DNA of 64,000 nt. Source: Massilia litorea (GTDB lineage: Bacteria > Pseudomonadota > Gammaproteobacteria > Burkholderiales > Burkholderiaceae_D). Of this stretch, positions 2,694 through 23,081 are shown in pieces (position 1 is the first letter of the stretch; each line of letters begins with the position of its first letter). The position numbers and the translations under genes were made by a program. The notes beneath the pieces are model-generated. The model did no database searches and was not told the DNA's origin. It worked only from the letters and a program-made list of their open reading frames with translations. Location of the stretch: positions 1,984,001 through 2,048,000 of the forward strand of contig NZ_CP062941.1 of assembly GCF_015101885.1 (NCBI RefSeq). The letters run 5' to 3'.

Positions 2694-4124
2694 ATGCGAA
2701 TCAACACCCTTGCCGCCGCGGTCACGCTGGCGGCGCTTGCCGGCTGCGCCGCAACCGGCCCGGCCGCGACCACGCCGCGTCCCGCGGTCGCCGGACAAGC
2801 GAAAAACGTCATCTTCTTCCTCGGCGACGGCATGGGCATCAACACCCTCACCGCCGCCCGCATCTACGCCGTCGGCGAAGCCGGCGAGCTGACGATCGAC
2901 ACGCTGCCCGAATCGGCTTTCATTAAAACCTTCTCGAACGACGCACAGGTCACCGACAGCGCCGCCTCGATGTCGGCCTACATGACCGGCGTAAAACAGA
3001 ACAACGGCGTGATCTCGATGTCGACCGAGACCCGGGCGCTCTCGCCGACGCTCGAGGGCAAGCGCACGGTCAGCCGCTGCAACAACGGTAAGGCGGTGCC
3101 GACCCTGGCCGAACTGGCCAAGGCGCGCGGCATGGCCGCCGGCGTCGTCACGACCACCAGCGTCACCGATGCGACCCCTGCCGCGACCTATGCCCACGCC
3201 TGCCACCGCAAGCTCGAAGAAGACATTGCCGCGGCCCTGGTGCCGGGCGGCGCCGGCTACAACAAGGCTTTGGGCAGCGGCGGCCTCGATCTCGTCTTCG
3301 GCGGCGGACTGCAGCAGTTCATGCCCGTGGACGCCGGCGGCAAGCGCGCCGACGGCCGCAACCTGATCGGAGAATTGCAACATCAAGGCTGGCGCGTCGC
3401 ATCGACTACGGCGCAGTTGCAGGCGCTGGCGGCGAACAGCCAGCCGGCCATCGGCCTGTTCGCCCAGAACCACTTTGCGTATGAAGCGGCGCGCGACCCG
3501 GTCAAGCAGCCTCTCTTGAGCGACATGACGGCCAAGGCGATCGACATCCTGTCCACCAACCCGAACGGTTTTTTCCTCGTCGTGGAGGGCGGCCTGATCG
3601 ACCACGCGCTGCACGCGACCCTCGCCAAGCGCGCCTTGCAGGAAACGGTCGGCTACAACGCCGCCATCAAGACCGCGCTCGATAAAATGAACCGGCTCGA
3701 TCCGGGTCTGAAGAACACGCTGATCGTCGCCACGGCCGACCATGACCACACCCTCTTGATCAACGGCTACTCGCCGCGCACCGGCAAGACGACGCTGGCG
3801 AATCCGGGCATTCTCGGCCTGGTGCGCAGCCTCCCGGACGGCAAGGTCCGCCTCGACAAGGACGGCGCGCCGTTCACGATTCTCGGCTTCGGCACCGGCG
3901 AACACCGGGTTGCCGGCAGCCGCAAGGACGTCAAGCTCACCGACGAGATCGCGGCCGGCGACGACTACCACCAGGAAGCCGTGGTGCGCACCAGGGCGGG
4001 CAGCGAGACGCATGGCGGCACCGACGTCTACCTCGGCGCGGCCGGCGCCAACGCCGAGCTGTTCCGCGGCACCATCGACAACACCCGTGTGTTCGACCTG
4101 ATCAAGAACGCGGCGGGCCTGTGA
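2694..4124 (+). CDS. Alkaline phosphatase, PhoA type, predicted lipoprotein
   Basis: A 476-aa phosphomonoesterase of the PhoA superfamily. The ATG at 2694 gives a short signal with a lipobox, LAALAGC (Cys18), so the enzyme is probably membrane-anchored. An upstream TTG in frame (2652) was rejected because it spoils the signal. Metal and catalytic elements are in order: FFLGDGMG (first metal Asp), TDSAAS with nucleophile Ser89, VVEGGLIDHALH (Glu and His ligands), TADHDH, and ETHGGTD near the C-terminus. The next gene is a second PhoA-type enzyme 23 bases downstream. No Pho box was recognised upstream. Confidence 0.93.
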   Translation: MRINTLAAAVTLAALAGCAATGPAATTPRPAVAGQAKNVIFFLGDGMGINTLTAARIYAVGEAGELTIDTLPESAFIKTFSNDAQVTDSAASMSAYMTGVKQNNGVISMSTETRALSPTLEGKRTVSRCNNGKAVPTLAELAKARGMAAGVVTTTSVTDATPAATYAHACHRKLEEDIAAALVPGGAGYNKALGSGGLDLVFGGGLQQFMPVDAGGKRADGRNLIGELQHQGWRVASTTAQLQALAANSQPAIGLFAQNHFAYEAARDPVKQPLLSDMTAKAIDILSTNPNGFFLVVEGGLIDHALHATLAKRALQETVGYNAAIKTALDKMNRLDPGLKNTLIVATADHDHTLLINGYSPRTGKTTLANPGILGLVRSLPDGKVRLDKDGAPFTILGFGTGEHRVAGSRKDVKLTDEIAAGDDYHQEAVVRTRAGSETHGGTDVYLGAAGANAELFRGTIDNTRVFDLIKNAAGL

Positions 4125-4147
4125 GCCCGGCCGCCAGAAAGCATCCG

Positions 4148-5536
4148 ATGACCAGAACTCTCCTCTCCACGCTGCTGCTGGCAGCATGCTGCACCATGAG
4201 CGCGCAGGCCGCAGCACCGGCTGCCAGGCCGCAGGCGAAAAACATCCTCTTCTTCCTCGGCGACGGCATGGGCCCGACCACCATCACGGCCGCGCGCATC
4301 TTCAAGGAAGGCGAAGACGGCCTCCTGAACTTCGAACGCCTCGACCGCACCGCGCGCATCAAGACCTACTCGGCGGACGCGCAGGTGACCGACAGCGCGC
4401 CCTCGATGGGCGCCTACATGACGGGCGTGAAGATCAACAACGACGTGATCTCGATGAAGGATGCGAAACCGGTCGCTCCCGGCAAGGACGGCAACGGCAT
4501 CGCCTCCATCGACCGCTGCGGCGCCGGCAACGGCAGTTCTCCGATGACGATCCTGGAACTGGCCAAGGCCGCCGGCAAGTCGGTCGGCGCCGTCACGACG
4601 ACCGAACTGACGCACGCCACGCCGGCATCGACCTTCTCCCACGTCTGCGACCGCGACATGGCCTACACGATCGCCCAGCAGCTCGTCCCGGGCGGCGCGG
4701 GCTACAACACGCGTTTGAAAGACGGCGTCGACGTGCTGATGGGAGGAGGGCGCAACCACTTCACGCCGTTCGACGCGAAGCGCAACCCGAAGGGCCGCGG
4801 CGATGGGCGCGACCTGGTGGAGGAGCTGGAAAAACAGGGGTATGCGGTCGCGAACACGCGCGCCGACATGGCCTCGAGCCGGCCCGGTAAAAAATTCCTC
4901 GGCCTGTACAGCGCCGAGAGCCATCTCGACTACGCTTCGAAGCGCTCGCCGACCCAGCCGACGCTGGCCGAGATGACGGCCAAGTCGATCGAGCTTTTAT
5001 CGGGTAATCCGAACGGCTTCTTCCTGATGGTCGAAGGCGGCAAGATCGACCACGCGCTGCATGACACGAACGCGCGCAACGCGCTGATCGAAACGGTCGC
5101 TTTCGACGAGGCGATCCAGACCGCGCTGGAGCGCATGCGCGCCATCGACCCGGGCCTCGACAACACCCTGGTCGTCGTCACCGCCGACCATGACCACACG
5201 ATGGTCCTGAACGGCTACCCGAAGCGCGGCAACCCGGTGCTCGACATCGTGCGCGGTTATACGGACGGCGAACCGACCCGCGACGCCGACGGCAAGACGT
5301 TTACGACGCTGGTCTTCGGCAACGGCCCGAACCGGCCCGACGTGCGCGTCGACGTCGACAGCGCCCAGGCGCTGGCGCCGGACTATCACCAGGAGACGGG
5401 CGTGAAATGGTCGAGCGAGTCGCACGGCGGCGGCGACGTCAAGCTGTACGCGGCAGGGGCGGGCTCGGCGCCGTTCAGGGGGACGATGGAGAATACCCAC
5501 GTGTTCGACCTGATGAAGGCCGCGGCAGGCTTGTAA
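4148..5536 (+). CDS. Alkaline phosphatase, PhoA type, periplasmic paralogue
   Basis: A 462-aa paralogue of the preceding gene with the same motif order: FFLGDGMG, TDSAPS (nucleophile Ser83), MVEGGKIDHALH, TADHDH and ESHGGGD. The signal peptide MTRTLLSTLLLAACCTMSAQA ends in an AQA-type signal peptidase I site, so this copy should be soluble in the periplasm, unlike its lipoprotein neighbour. A GTG at 4121 overlaps the previous stop and could couple translation, but the ATG at 4148 gives the cleaner signal. The pair looks like a tandem duplication with divided location; substrates cannot be told from sequence. Confidence 0.92.
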   Translation: MTRTLLSTLLLAACCTMSAQAAAPAARPQAKNILFFLGDGMGPTTITAARIFKEGEDGLLNFERLDRTARIKTYSADAQVTDSAPSMGAYMTGVKINNDVISMKDAKPVAPGKDGNGIASIDRCGAGNGSSPMTILELAKAAGKSVGAVTTTELTHATPASTFSHVCDRDMAYTIAQQLVPGGAGYNTRLKDGVDVLMGGGRNHFTPFDAKRNPKGRGDGRDLVEELEKQGYAVANTRADMASSRPGKKFLGLYSAESHLDYASKRSPTQPTLAEMTAKSIELLSGNPNGFFLMVEGGKIDHALHDTNARNALIETVAFDEAIQTALERMRAIDPGLDNTLVVVTADHDHTMVLNGYPKRGNPVLDIVRGYTDGEPTRDADGKTFTTLVFGNGPNRPDVRVDVDSAQALAPDYHQETGVKWSSESHGGGDVKLYAAGAGSAPFRGTMENTHVFDLMKAAAGL

Positions 5537-18580: not shown

Positions 18581-19687
18581 ATGCTGTCATGGGACGATGA
18601 ACCAACGAGCGCCGCGCGCGCACCGCAAGCTGCTGGCCTGCCGGAAACCGTCGACGCCGCCCTGGTCGCCACCCGCGTGAACGCCGACGACAAGCGCATC
18701 ATCAACGGCAAGACCGACGTCAACCAGCTGGTGCCCTTCAAATACAAGTGGGCCTGGGACAAGTACCTGGCCGGCTGCGCGAACCACTGGATGCCGCAGG
18801 AAGTGAACATGCAGCGCGACATCGAGCTCTGGAAGAGCCCGAACGGCCTGTCGGAGGACGAGCGCCGCCTGGTCAAGCGCAACCTGGGCTTTTTCGTGAC
18901 GGCCGACTCGCTGGCCGCGAACAACATCGTGCTGGGTACCTACCGCCACATCACGGCCCCGGAATGCCGCCAGTACCTGCTGCGCCAGGCCTTCGAGGAG
19001 GCGATCCACACCCACGCCTACCAGTACATCGTCGAGTCGCTGGGACTGGATGAAAAAGAGATCTTCAACGCCTACAACGAGATCGCGTCGATCCACGACA
19101 AGGACCAGTTCCTGATTCCGTATATCAACGTGCTGACCGACCCTGATTTCAAAACCGGCACGCTGGAAGCGGACCAGACGCTACTGAAGTCGATCATCGT
19201 CTTCGCCTGCATGATGGAAGGCCTGTTCTTCTACGTCGGCTTCACCCAGATCCTGGCGCTGGGCCGCCAGAACAAGATGACCGGCGCCGCCGAGCAGTAC
19301 CAGTACATCCTGCGCGACGAGTCGATGCACGTGAACTTCGGCATCGACCTGATCAACACGATCAAGATGGAAAACCCGCTGCTGTGGACCCCGGCCTTCC
19401 GCGACGAGATCAAGGCCCTGTTCCTGGAAGCGGTAGAACTCGAATACCGCTACGCCGAAGACACCATGCCGCGCGGCGTGCTGGGCCTGAACGCGACCAT
19501 GTTCAAGGGCTACCTGCGCTTCATCGCCAACCGCCGCGCCGTGCAGATCGGGCTCGATCCGCTGTTCCCGGCCGAAGAGAATCCATTCCCATGGATGAGC
19601 GAGATGATCGACCTGAAGAAGGAACGTAACTTCTTCGAGACCCGCGTGACGGAGTACCAGACGGGTGGGGCGCTGAACTGGGATTGA
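18581..19687 (+). CDS. nrdB: Ribonucleoside-diphosphate reductase beta subunit, class Ia
   Basis: A 368-aa diiron-tyrosyl radical subunit that supplies the radical to NrdA. Ligand and radical residues are clear: Asp109 ([10 protein letters not shown]), Glu140, His143 and Tyr147 in EEAIHTHAY (equivalent to E115, H118 and Y122 of E. coli), and the later helix [15 protein letters not shown] with a Glu and a His. The C-terminal tail [10 protein letters not shown] is the part that docks on NrdA. AAGAGGAAC precedes the ATG. Its last 342 bases, terminator and linker are repeated three more times downstream (19781-20789). Confidence 0.97.
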
Positions 19688-19712
19688 TTCCAGCTGCTCT
19701 ATATAGATGTCG

Positions 19713-19744
19713 AAAGCCCGATGAGGAATCATCGGGCTTTTTTT
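19713..19744 (+). terminator. nrdB terminator (native)
   Basis: A 12-bp stem AAAGCCCGATGA / TCATCGGGCTTT with a GGAA tetraloop and a T7 run, 25 bases after the nrdB stop. Confidence 0.92.
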
Positions 19745-19780
19745 ATGCGCTAACCTAGACCGAACCTGACTCCACGTAGC

Positions 19781-19949
19781 GACCTGATCAACACGATCAA
19801 GATGAAAAACTCGCTGCCATGAACTCCGGCCTCCCGGGACAAGATCAAGCCCCTGTTCCTGGCTGCTCTATATAGATGTCGAAAGCCCGATGAGGAATCA
19901 TCGGGCTTTTTTTATGCGCTAACCTAGACCGAACCTGACTCCACGTAGC
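19781..19949 (+). pseudogene. nrdB 3' fragment, unit 2 (internally deleted)
   Basis: About 80 bases matching the DLINTIK part of nrdB, joined directly to the sequence just after the nrdB stop; 266 bases (native 19428-19693) are missing. It carries the same substitutions as unit 3 (TCGCTGCCATGAA), so it probably derives from that lineage. It cannot encode a useful protein. Its terminator is intact (19882-19913). Confidence 0.85.
19882..19913 (+). terminator. Duplicated nrdB terminator, unit 2
   Basis: Same stem, GGAA loop and T7 run as the native nrdB terminator. Confidence 0.85.
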
Positions 19950-20290
19950 GACCTGATCAACACGATCAAGATGGAAAACTCGCTGCCATGAACCCCGGCC
20001 TCCCGGGACAAGATCAAGACCCTGTTCCTGGAAGCCGTCAACTTCCATACCGCTACGCCGAAGACACCATGCCGCGCGGCGTGCTGGGCCTGAACGCGAC
20101 CATGTTCAAGGGCTACCTGCGCTTCATCGCCAACCGCCGCGCCGTGCAGATCGGGCTCGATCCGCTGTTCCCGGCCGAAGACAATCCATTCCCATGGATG
20201 AGCGAGATGATCGACCTGAAGAAGGAACGTAACTTCTTCGAGACCCGCGTGACGGAGTACCAGACGGGTGGGGCGCTGAACTGGGATTGA
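19950..20290 (+). pseudogene. nrdB 3' fragment, unit 3 (frameshifted)
   Basis: A copy of the last 342 bases of nrdB with a one-base deletion where the native gene reads GCGGTAGAACTCGAATACC and the copy reads GCCGTCAACTTCCATACC. An open frame of about 80 NrdB-like residues from YRYAEDT to the stop remains, differing from NrdB only by Glu to Asp in the AEENPF segment. There is no ribosome site or full catalytic core, so translation into a working product is unlikely. Confidence 0.88.
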
Positions 20291-20317
20291 TTCCAGCTGC
20301 TCTATATAGATGTCGAG

Positions 20318-20348
20318 AAGCCCGGTGAAAAATCATCGGGCTTTTTTT
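20318..20348 (+). terminator. Duplicated nrdB terminator, unit 3 (G-U intermediate)
   Basis: Stem AAGCCCGGTGA / TCATCGGGCTT with an AAAA loop and T run. One arm has changed relative to the native stem, leaving a G-U pair. Confidence 0.85.
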
Positions 20349-20384
20349 ATGCGCTAACCTAGACCGAACCTGACTCCACGTAGC

Positions 20385-20725
20385 GACTTGATCAACACGA
20401 TCAAGATGGATAACCCGCTGCTGTGGCCCCCGGCCTTCCGGGACAAGATCAAGACCCTGTTCCTGGAAGCCGTCAACTTCCATACCGCTACGCCGAAGAC
20501 ACCAAGCCGCGCGGCCTGCTGGGCCTGAACGCGACCATGTTCAAGGGCTACCTGCGCTTCATCGCGAATCGCCGCGCCGTGCAGATCGGGCTCGATCCGC
20601 TGTTCCCGGCCGAAGAGAATCCATTCCCATGGATGAGCGAGATGATCGACCTGAAGAAGGAACGTAGCTTCTTCGAGACGCGCGTGACGGAGTACCAGAC
20701 GGGTGGGGCGCTGAACTGGGATTGA
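20385..20725 (+). pseudogene. nrdB 3' fragment, unit 4 (frameshifted)
   Basis: It carries the same one-base deletion as unit 3, but its first 70 bases are closer to native nrdB (MDNPLLWPPAFRD). The distal part encodes the NrdB C-terminus with Met to Lys (ATG to AAG), Val to Leu and Asn to Ser changes plus silent ones; the end [10 protein letters not shown] is unchanged. Non-functional as a subunit because the first two thirds of the protein are absent. Confidence 0.88.
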
Positions 20726-20751
20726 TTCCAGCTGCTCTATATAGATGTCGA

Positions 20752-20783
20752 GAAGCCCGGTGAAAAATCACCGGGCTTTTTTT
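20752..20783 (+). terminator. Duplicated nrdB terminator, unit 4 (compensated pair)
   Basis: Stem AAGCCCGGTGA / TCACCGGGCTT with an AAAA loop and T7 run. Both arms are changed relative to the native stem, restoring a Watson-Crick pair. Confidence 0.87.
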
Positions 20784-20789
20784 ATGCGC

Positions 20790-21515
20790 GTGCGCCGTCG
20801 GGGCGCGTCACGATGCCGAATGTCTGGCGTCCGTGACGGTCAAAGCAGATAAATCGTCTCGACTTGGCGCGCGTCCTTCGTTGGCCGGCCGAAGCAGGTC
20901 CATTTCAAGGGAGGCCTGATGGAATCAGGCGCGCTTTGAAATGAAGCGGCGCGGCGCGCGCTGAAGTTCCCGCACGGGGTTTGTTGTAGTCGTAGCGAAG
21001 AAGTGAATTTACGCGTGCGCGGGTTGCGGAGTGACAAGGTTTTCGTGTACTTTACGTGATTGAATTTGTCAAAACGTGAACATGGCCTTTTTCGCATGCT
21101 CGCAGGCAGACAAAACCGATTGAAAAAGGGAGTCGAAACAGCCTCGGCAAGCGCAGCAAATGCGGCGCGAAATGAGCTTCGAGACTTCCGTAATGGGACG
21201 CTGATTCAAGCCAGCATGCACATAAGCGTAACGAAAAGAACAAGCCGCACTGCCTGATCCTTTTCAGGCAAGGCGGCTTTTTCTTTTCGTGCTCGTAAGG
21301 GCAGCGATGTGAAAGCGCAGCTAAGTAATGGATGGGTGTCCCGACGTCGTTGGCTGAAGCGCTGCAATTGTGAGGAGTTGCAGCAGTTCAGCTGGTGCCG
21401 GATTCATTGGCAGTAACCCAAACGGTTTATGCCGATGAATAACCCGCCCGGCCATCCGGACGGACGGGTTTCAACCTTGTAGCGTATTTTCTCATCGCAG
21501 AGAAGGAGAACTAAA
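20790..21515. other. Gene-poor region before the H1-like gene; possible small RNA
   Basis: 726 bases without a convincing protein gene. Short frames exist (a TTG-started 65-codon frame at 21060-21257 and an antisense 85-codon frame) but lack ribosome sites and family resemblance. A strong terminator at 21242-21287 nevertheless ends something transcribed on the plus strand, so a small RNA or short leader transcript between about 21000 and 21287 is possible. The last 60 bases hold the ribosome site of the next gene (GAAGGAGAAC). Confidence 0.45.
21242..21287 (+). terminator. Strong intrinsic terminator with no assigned gene
   Basis: A two-part stem: outer AAGCCGC / GCGGCTT and inner TGCCTG / CAGGCA around an 8-base loop, followed by a T-rich tail (TTTTTCTTTTC). 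No protein gene precedes it on this strand since the nrdB array. Confidence 0.8.
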
Positions 21516-23081
21516 ATGGCAACAGCAGCGAAGAAACCAGCAGCAAAACCGGCAGCGAAATCGGCCGCCGCAGAGAAACCAGCCGCCAAGTCGGCAGCGA
21601 AGACGACGGCCAAAGCGGCCGCCAAGCCTGCTGCCAAACCGGCAGCAAAAGCTGCATCGAAGACTCCGGCAAAAGCTGCCGCAAAACCAGCGGCGAAGGC
21701 CGCTGCAAAGCCAGCAGCAAAACCAGCAGCGAAGAAAGCCGCCGCCAAGCCGGCAGCCAAGCCGGCTGCAAAGAAAGCCGCCGCTAAACCGGCAGCCAAG
21801 CCAGCTGCCAAGAAAGCCGCTGCCAAGCCGGCAGCCAAGCCGGCTGCAAAGAAAGCCGCCGCTAAACCGGCAGCCAAGCCAGCTGCCAAGAAAGCCGCTG
21901 CTAAATCCGCCGCCAAGCCAGTAGCAAAAGCAGCTGCCACCAAGTCGGCAGCCAAGCCAGCGGCCAAGAAGACCGCTACCAAAGCCGTAGCCAAGCCTGC
22001 CGCCAAGACCGCAGCCAAGTCGGCAGCCAAGCCGGCAGCGAAGAAGACCGCGACCAAAGCCGCGGCCAAGCCAGCTGCCAAGAAAACCGCGACCAAAGCA
22101 GCAGCCAAGCCTGCCGCCAAGACCGCAACCAAGTCGGCAGCCAAGCCAGCAGCGAAGAAGACCGCAACCAAAGCAGCAGCCAAGCCAGCAGCCAAAAAGA
22201 CTGCAGCCGCCAAGCCGGTAGCAAAAGCAGCAGCGACCAAGTCGGCAGCCAAGGGGGCGTCTGCAAAGACGTCCGCGAAGAGCGCAGCCAAGGCACCGGC
22301 GAAGACCGCTGCCAAGGCGCCAGCCAAGTCCGCAGCGAAGACCGCTGCCAAAGCACCAGCCAAGTCGGCATCGAAGGGTCCGGCCAAGGCACCGGCGAAG
22401 ACCGTCGCCAAGACCGCAGCCAAGGCACCAGCCAAGACTGCAGCCAAAGCATCAGCCAAGAGCGCTGCCAAGGGGACGGCTGCGAAGCCGTCCGCGAAAG
22501 CCGCTGCCACGAAGGCGCCGGTCAAGTCAGCCGCTAAGACTGCCACCCCAGCTCCAGCCAAGGCTGCTGCTACCAAGACCGCCGCTACCAAGACCGCAGC
22601 GCCAGCTCCGGCCAAAGCAGCAGCGACCAAGCCAGCCGCTACCAAGACCGCAGCATCCGCTCCGGCCAAAGCAGCAGCGACCAAGCCAGCCGCTACCAAG
22701 ACCGCAGCATCCGCTCCGGCCAAAGCAGCAGCGACCAAGCCAGCCGCCAAGCCAGCTGCCAAAGCTGAAGCCAAGCCCGAAGCCATGAAGGCCGAAGCCA
22801 AGCCGGAAGCAGCGAAAGCCGAAGCCAAGCCGGAAGCAGCCAAGGCCGAAGCCAAGCCGGAAGCCGCCGCAGCACCTGCGGTGAAGGCGGAAGCCAAGCC
22901 GGAAGCGGCAGCCAAGCCAGCAGCCAAGAAAGCGGCAGCCAAGAAGCCGGCGGCCAAGGAAACGGAAGCCAAGCCAGCCCAGGCAGCAGGCGAAGCCAAG
23001 CCGGCCGCACCGGCACCAGCGGCGAAGACCGTGCTGGCACCGGCAGCCGCCTGGCCGTTCCCGACCAGCAGCCGTCCGTAA
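21516..23081 (+). CDS. Histone H1-like Ala/Lys/Pro-rich repeat protein
   Basis: A 521-aa, very basic, low-complexity protein built from AAK, KPAAK and TKTAA repeats, like eukaryotic histone H1 tails and AlgP/Hc1-type bacterial proteins. Residues 1-420 are Lys/Ala/Pro; about residues 417-465 switch to KAEAKPEAA repeats with acidic residues; the end AAAWPFPTSSRP is aromatic and non-repetitive. Likely role is DNA binding and compaction, inferred from composition. GAAGGAG sits before ATG 21516. Internal nucleotide repeats (21708-21902 and 22572-22733) make length variation between strains likely. A long antisense frame is a compositional shadow. Confidence 0.85.
   Translation: MATAAKKPAAKPAAKSAAAEKPAAKSAAKTTAKAAAKPAAKPAAKAASKTPAKAAAKPAAKAAAKPAAKPAAKKAAAKPAAKPAAKKAAAKPAAKPAAKKAAAKPAAKPAAKKAAAKPAAKPAAKKAAAKSAAKPVAKAAATKSAAKPAAKKTATKAVAKPAAKTAAKSAAKPAAKKTATKAAAKPAAKKTATKAAAKPAAKTATKSAAKPAAKKTATKAAAKPAAKKTAAAKPVAKAAATKSAAKGASAKTSAKSAAKAPAKTAAKAPAKSAAKTAAKAPAKSASKGPAKAPAKTVAKTAAKAPAKTAAKASAKSAAKGTAAKPSAKAAATKAPVKSAAKTATPAPAKAAATKTAATKTAAPAPAKAAATKPAATKTAASAPAKAAATKPAATKTAASAPAKAAATKPAAKPAAKAEAKPEAMKAEAKPEAAKAEAKPEAAKAEAKPEAAAAPAVKAEAKPEAAAKPAAKKAAAKKPAAKETEAKPAQAAGEAKPAAPAPAAKTVLAPAAAWPFPTSSRP
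21708..21902 (+). repeat. Five 39-base tandem repeats inside the H1-like gene
   Basis: Units start at 21708, 21747, 21786, 21825 and 21864, each encoding KPAAKPAAKKAAA. Units 2 and 4 are identical at the DNA level and 3 and 5 nearly so, which points to a two-unit (78-base) duplication step. Confidence 0.9.
22572..22733 (+). repeat. Three 54-base tandem repeats inside the H1-like gene
   Basis: Units at 22572, 22626 and 22680. The last two are identical and encode TKPAATKTAASAPAKAAA; the first differs at a few bases. Confidence 0.88.

Follow-up and report, generated by a model that had tools for sequence, protein, structure and literature searches.

A probably non-functional, decayed tandem duplication of the nrdB 3′ end in Massilia litorea

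Introduction

Why should an intact essential gene be followed by three further partial copies of its own 3′ end? This question is raised by nrdB in a 64,000-nucleotide stretch of the Massilia litorea genome (NZ_CP062941.1, positions 1,984,001 to 2,048,000), referred to here as the window. The original prediction for this locus offered several possible roles for the copies (a reservoir for gene conversion of the NrdB tail, a source of 3′-derived RNA, or reinforced termination), or equally a decaying duplication. Judged from the sequence, we put a probability of roughly 70% on the array being a tandem duplication of the nrdB 3′ end that has no function, has decayed, has been partly refreshed and is so far confined to this genome.

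Results

Four units and an identical linker

The coordinates and unit lengths first given for the array (435, 169, 435 and 405 bp) proved exact (Table 1). Counted with its linker, unit 1 spans 19346-19780 and consists of 342 coding nt including the stop codon, 63 nt of 3′UTR and terminator and the 30-nt linker (435 in all); units 2 and 3 with their linkers span 19781-19949 (169 bp) and 19950-20384 (435 bp), and unit 4 (20385-20789, 405 bp) has none. The 30-bp linker sequence is identical at its three positions. The one-base deletion said to be common to units 3 and 4 is present at unit position 90, and the same two units also share a one-base insertion in the 3′UTR (position 368), which offsets the deletion and leaves the unit length unchanged.

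Table 1. Features of the nrdB 3′-end array and its surroundings (positions in the window)
Feature	Position	Strand	Evidence or remark
Native nrdB, 368 aa, intact	18581..19687	+	ORF; its last 342 nt are the coding part of unit 1
Native 3′UTR with intrinsic-terminator-like hairpin Ta	19688..19750	+	Fold -22 kcal/mol, z -2.6
30-bp linker, copy 1	19751..19780	+	29 bp of it (19751-19779) sought in 61 other genus genomes
Unit 2: first 82 nt of the tail, then terminator	19781..19919	+	TRF period 169, 98%
Linker, copy 2	19920..19949	+	Linker comparison
Unit 3: pseudo-tail (W-to-stop, 1-nt deletion), last 240 coding nt near-native, terminator Tb	19950..20354	+	Unit comparison
Linker, copy 3	20355..20384	+	Linker comparison
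Unit 4: pseudo-tail, missense at invariant sites, 1-nt deletion as in unit 3, terminator Tc	20385..20789	+	Unit comparison, folding
Flank up to histone H1-like gene (21516-23081)	20790..21515	+	Relatives homologous from about 20900 (BLAST)

Unit 2 had been taken for a repeat of the 435-base unit; its length stands, its origin does not. At 19693-20031 TRF reports a tandem duplication of its own, with a period of 169 bp (2.0 copies, 98% identity), the duplicated piece being 3′UTR, terminator, linker and the first 82 nt of the next unit. Unit 2 is thus better read as a later, separate small tandem duplication of the junction than as an internally deleted 435-bp unit.

The TRF scores of 657 and 1716, with identities of 94-98%, exclude chance as the origin of the array. 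The assembly consists of two contigs (5,188,430 and 158,663 bp), and units 1, 3 and 4 differ from one another at 16-23 positions, which argues against a stuttering artefact of assembly. The array occurs at one place in its own genome, as head-to-tail copies at a single locus; repeats of 100 bp or more within 2.5 kb were seen in 7 stretches besides the window, in a background set of 59 stretches that total 1.224 Mb together with the window, or some 23% of the genome.

One genome carries the array, at a variable locus

The comparison across related genomes that the original prediction had proposed placed the full array in one of 62 genus genomes (6 candidates scored per genome; one genome per species, the species itself being represented by this genome only). 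Local self-comparison of 62 nrdB loci from 59 other genus genomes found no further array. Of 80 named loci, 77 extend 300 bp or more past nrdB, and in none of these was a second tail found within the up to 5 kb compared. The nrdB genes of relatives are up to 92% identical to the native one. G034 and G032 are the two genomes closest to this one; in both, a single nrdB terminator is followed by sequence that aligns to the window from about 20900-20910. BLAST homology begins at flank base 111 and 121, respectively, i.e. 110-120 bp behind unit 4, and apart from a short shared motif at 20838, the first 110 bp or so behind unit 4 do not align. The extra units are therefore added material.

One way to add such material is displacement: incoming DNA would recombine homologously within nrdB and join illegitimately downstream, so that a new working tail stands in front and the old one is pushed back, once or repeatedly. 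We regard this as possible, if somewhat less probable than its opposite, and it could itself be the first step of the duplication we favour. The resumption of homology within about 110 bp behind unit 4 supports it, as does the absence of the linker from relatives (29 bp of it, 19751-19779, had no match with 3 or fewer mismatches in 61 other genus genomes); against it, these 30 bp are the only cargo left. The linker had no exact match in viral_contigs and only chance-level matches in the loci compared. That no linker source was found, and no intermediate array stage among the genomes compared, counts against the duplication we favour. Phage DNA gave no match to array-like sequence, and 36 plasmid records matched the array, with 18 of the 20 records listed annotated as nrdB.

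The chromosome stretch behind nrdB varies strongly in gene content between relatives. Where the flank was matched (48 of 62 genus loci), it lies 238 bp to 12.4 kb from nrdB, at most 302 bp in four loci and at least 1.4 kb in the rest; these distances are approximate, as the matches begin at differing points in the flank and a match of 66 bp underlies the longest (G016). ORFs in these intervals gave Pfam matches in 77 of 169 cases, of mixed kinds (glycosyltransferases, regulators, glycoside hydrolases, T6SS-related and antitoxin families).

The copies have decayed

Compared to the native tail, unit 3 carries W-to-stop, P-to-S and F-to-S changes, and unit 4 carries E-to-K, T-to-P, M-to-K, V-to-L and N-to-S. 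The native residue at the sites of amino-acid change is invariant in 128 of 128 NrdB tails (these residues include P, L, W, T, F, M, V and N, at unit positions 31, 38, 42, 43, 53, 122, 133 and 284, respectively), except at the E-to-K site, where 125 tails have E, 3 have D and none has K. Of these 128 ungapped tails, 62 are from genus loci and 66 from the set of 80 named loci; tails with gaps were dropped, and some genomes stand in both sets.

The window copies show 13 nucleotide changes giving 7 amino-acid changes, and 10 giving 7. Under simulated random substitution (assuming 67% transitions), 9.0 amino-acid changes are expected between units 1 and 4 (P=0.16) and 7.0 between units 1 and 3 (P=0.63). 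The changes fit neutral decay with no apparent purifying selection, the small number of changes making this a weak test. Units 3 and 4 have decayed as pseudogenes, and the suggestion of a decaying duplication is borne out by the stop, the frameshift, the changes at invariant residues, the near-neutral amino-acid change and the restriction to one genus genome. For displacement, a synonymous pattern left by once-functional tails would be expected, and the neutral-looking changes speak against it, although later decay could mask such a pattern.

A 100-aa frame is kept in both unit 3 (19988-20290) and unit 4 (20423-20725), each ending in the native NrdB C-terminus and giving a weak Pfam Ribonuc_red_sm match. 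The NrdB C-terminus docks on NrdA. The retention of these frames sits awkwardly with a non-functional array and would suit a decoy peptide, or copies that serve as a gene-conversion reservoir of tail variants. We hold both roles to be extremely improbable: substitution looks neutral, no promoter-like site was found in the array by sequence scan, and the native-like part of unit 3 differs by a single residue and so offers no variation. The copies contain no intact tail variants, and, as described below, the mosaic reads as flow from the gene into the copies.

Mosaic identity points to overwriting of unit 3 by nrdB

Coding differences between units 1 and 3 are concentrated at the 5′ end (14 in the first 106 nt vs. 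1 in the next 240; Fisher 3.8e-7), with a lesser skew between units 1 and 4 (12 vs. 6; Fisher 0.0013), the 106/240 boundary having been chosen after inspecting the data. The last 240 coding nt of unit 3 were probably copied in from the working nrdB gene by recombination; we prefer this direction because flow from unit 3 into nrdB would damage an essential gene. The unit 3 terminator lies outside the refreshed tract, with 4 differences from unit 1 and 1 from unit 4, and that it was not refreshed although the coding tail was is a point against our preferred reading.

The 3′ coding parts of units 3 and 4 are 99.6% and 97.5% identical to the native gene, vs. 96.2% and 94.4% for the best other nrdB compared. 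This best match to the native gene weighs against displacement, though conversion could explain it. The 5′ parts, of about 106 nt, behave differently: 93 and 95 of 107 nt are identical to nrdB of two other genus species (G032 and G048), tying with the native gene, whose own 5′ part is 94-95% identical to theirs. That these parts are equally close to other species' nrdB favours displacement and counts against a purely local duplication; the diverged sequence itself is compatible with an older copy having decayed and with foreign DNA as its source. Displacement also gains from the synonymous states of unit 4 at unit positions 183 and 297, which occur in 12 and 44 of the 62 genus loci, respectively.

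Terminators and candidate RNAs

Three hairpin types occur in the array, Ta in units 1 and 2, Tb in unit 3 and Tc in unit 4, and all fold well (Tb -20.8 and Tc -23.4 kcal/mol, z -2.4 and -3.3; Ta in Table 1). The stem of the unit 4 terminator is altered on both sides with folding retained, which could mean that this terminator is selected, a point against a non-functional array. On these grounds reinforced termination, one of the roles first proposed, is possible but unproven; it would require that the extra terminators shield the downstream H1-like gene from read-through. We judge this highly improbable, since the coding part of each unit is superfluous for termination, none of the 59 other genus genomes examined has such an array behind nrdB, and a simple consensus terminator scan lists none of the three hairpins.

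A role as a source of 3′-derived RNA finds little support either, as the array contains no promoter-like site and no Rfam match at gathering score. A sub-threshold match to RF02278 (Betaproteobacteria toxic sRNA; 25.2 bits, cut-off 50, E 0.075) lies at 19860-19914, over the unit 2 terminator, and tells to that extent against our preferred reading. Beyond this match, function is hinted at only by the two-sided stem change in unit 4 and by the 100-aa frames left open.

Two non-coding blocks further on, upstream of the H1-like gene, are possible candidate RNAs: 21020-21085 is covered in 33-42 and 21192-21300 in 43-45 of 48 matching genus loci, the latter with a strong hairpin and T-run; the blocks have no Rfam match at gathering score.

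nrdB remnants and integrases in other genus genomes

Remnants of nrdB were found behind nrdB in three other genus genomes. G013 has a tail piece at +9022, a terminator piece at +9105 and a flank match from +9360 (L121, about 4100-4300). G045 has a partial nrdB copy (nt 122-845), split by about 1 kb containing an HTH-domain ORF that we take for a transposase, with the flank at +5666 (L116, 3495-5295), and in G001 the last 25 nt or so of nrdB lie at +5942, the flank not being found (L171). Apart from one in G041, described below, further repeats in the self-comparison of genus nrdB loci were at chance level. The three cases fit insertions anchored by nrdB homology with illegitimate joining further on, comparable to the homology-facilitated illegitimate recombination proposed for orphan immunity-gene arrays of the Vibrio cholerae T6SS (Kirchberger 2017, PMC5361080), and both these remnants and the published proposal lend support to displacement.

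A 29-bp repeat in G041 (<1e-4) was not kept as an nrdB remnant, since the match resembles a terminator and falls within the conserved flank. Stray decayed nrdB pieces also occur away from the nrdB locus in G042 (L118, 3905-4177) and G017 (L119, 3987-4085).

In G025 an integrase ORF lies just behind an nrdB tail (L123, 1-917), and in G026 (L187, 25-2214) a second, open nrdB (residues 25-368 matched) is followed by a 219-aa integrase-domain protein. Such neighbours would be expected if the nrdB 3′ end were the attachment site of a tyrosine-recombinase element carrying a replacement tail, with the array as its footprint. We think this very unlikely. The G026 counterpart of the G025 arrangement sits on a 457-kb plasmid with its own nrdB, for which reason the integrase was dropped as the cause of the array. 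The G025-type integrase is found in 10 of 245 family genomes at E 1e-30, the genome studied here not among them, and no integrase is encoded by the eight small ORFs of 19845-21257 or appears among the 25 commonest of the 47 Pfam families in the nrdB-flank intervals.

The nrdB pieces of G025 itself, on contigs C5, C29, C43 and C55, comprise two starts and two ends, with no middle found, and look as if two identical middles had collapsed in assembly. An integrative and conjugative element (ICE) of Acidithiobacillus caldus has been reported to carry nrdB (PMC3826726).

An independent nrdB tail array in another family

G368 belongs to a different family of the order. Behind its nrdB the last 21 codons of the gene recur twice at intervals of 155 bp (L277, 1691-2065), with a hairpin-bearing linker of about 90 bp behind the first and second tails. 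Two congeners, G446 (L299) and G509 (L300), share this linker, behind which comes a second tail piece; two others (G324 and G409) gave no match to the linker, and four further congeners no match at all. Among the three G368 tails there are 11, 8 and 13 nt differences but only 0, 1 and 1 amino-acid changes (7.2, 5.4 and 8.3 expected). Differences that are almost only synonymous suggest that each tail was part of a working nrdB after separating from the others, and hence that the array consists of successively displaced working tails. This pattern favours displacement, and it is not seen in the window copies.

Across the order, 327 of 399 genomes match an 84-aa tail query, a survey that covered nrdB tails only and would miss very short ones. 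Nine have more than one match, and among these only G368, besides the genome studied here, has tails in an adjacent array; two long nrdB frames are present in each of G072, G303 and G502, the second match of G343 is distant (41%), and those of G359, G429 and G445 are short pieces. Protein searches gave 1520 and 2045 matches, of which the best 120 of each were listed; one metagenome protein (P0110, on a 17,316-bp contig) continues in the same frame from one NrdB tail into a second, which is partial and decayed, the two being identical at 26 of 32 residues. It alone shows tail after tail among 10 sequences examined, and no other of the matches listed covers more than 60% of it.

It is tempting to see the nrdB 3′ end as a recurrent displacement site in the order, its arrays recording a succession of nrdB alleles, with selected tails in G368 and congeners and a late, decaying and re-amplified array in the window. 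We consider this broader reading unlikely, though not negligible.

Discussion

The array in the window is most likely a non-functional scar, which a first event began and which was amplified in tandem, decayed and was partly overwritten with sequence of the gene. We propose that an insertion or illegitimate duplication at the end of nrdB left a second tail and terminator, now unit 4, behind the 30-bp linker. The 435-bp unit would then have been duplicated to give unit 3 and the 169-bp piece duplicated again to give unit 2, as the structure suggests. The copies decayed as pseudogenes, as their sequence shows, and, if we read the direction of the mosaic correctly, recombination with the intact gene replaced the last 240 coding nt of unit 3 and perhaps part of unit 4. 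We found no signs of selection for the array here, and roles as an RNA source, terminator bank, decoy or reservoir appear unsupported.

Ordinary bacterial tandem duplication with gene conversion yields head-to-tail units of mosaic identity. The window array resembles it in both respects and in its second, smaller duplication, and differs in that the unit is part of an essential gene plus terminator, which is unusual, and in that no source was found for the linker.

The statement that no such case was known needs some qualification. Among published titles and abstract openings we found no paper on nrdB tail arrays, but G368 has an nrdB array of its own, and 3′-end arrays of T6SS and Rhs genes have been described (PMC5361080). 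In the V. cholerae T6SS arrays of that account, too, a new 3′ module stands in front with older 3′ ends displaced downstream, but these retain different immunity genes, whereas the copies in the window are decaying and all match the end of one housekeeping gene. Orphan Rhs 3′ regions, which occur in strings (PMC5361080), are likewise displaced ends behind an intact gene; they are ends of variable toxin genes, and such variation was not seen in the window. Genomic islands in gene 3′ ends, e.g. trmE or tDNA (PMC8409611, PMC4383910), leave a displaced end that marks the far side of the insert; unlike these, the array has no cargo, and no integrase was found with it.

The recurrent tail duplication of the G368 type is a more interesting lead than the window array itself. 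In the window, an essential gene has near-identical sequence in adjoining broken copies, with signs of recombination, beside variable gene content. If displacement is the true reading, such arrays would preserve a readable history of exchange at a core gene.
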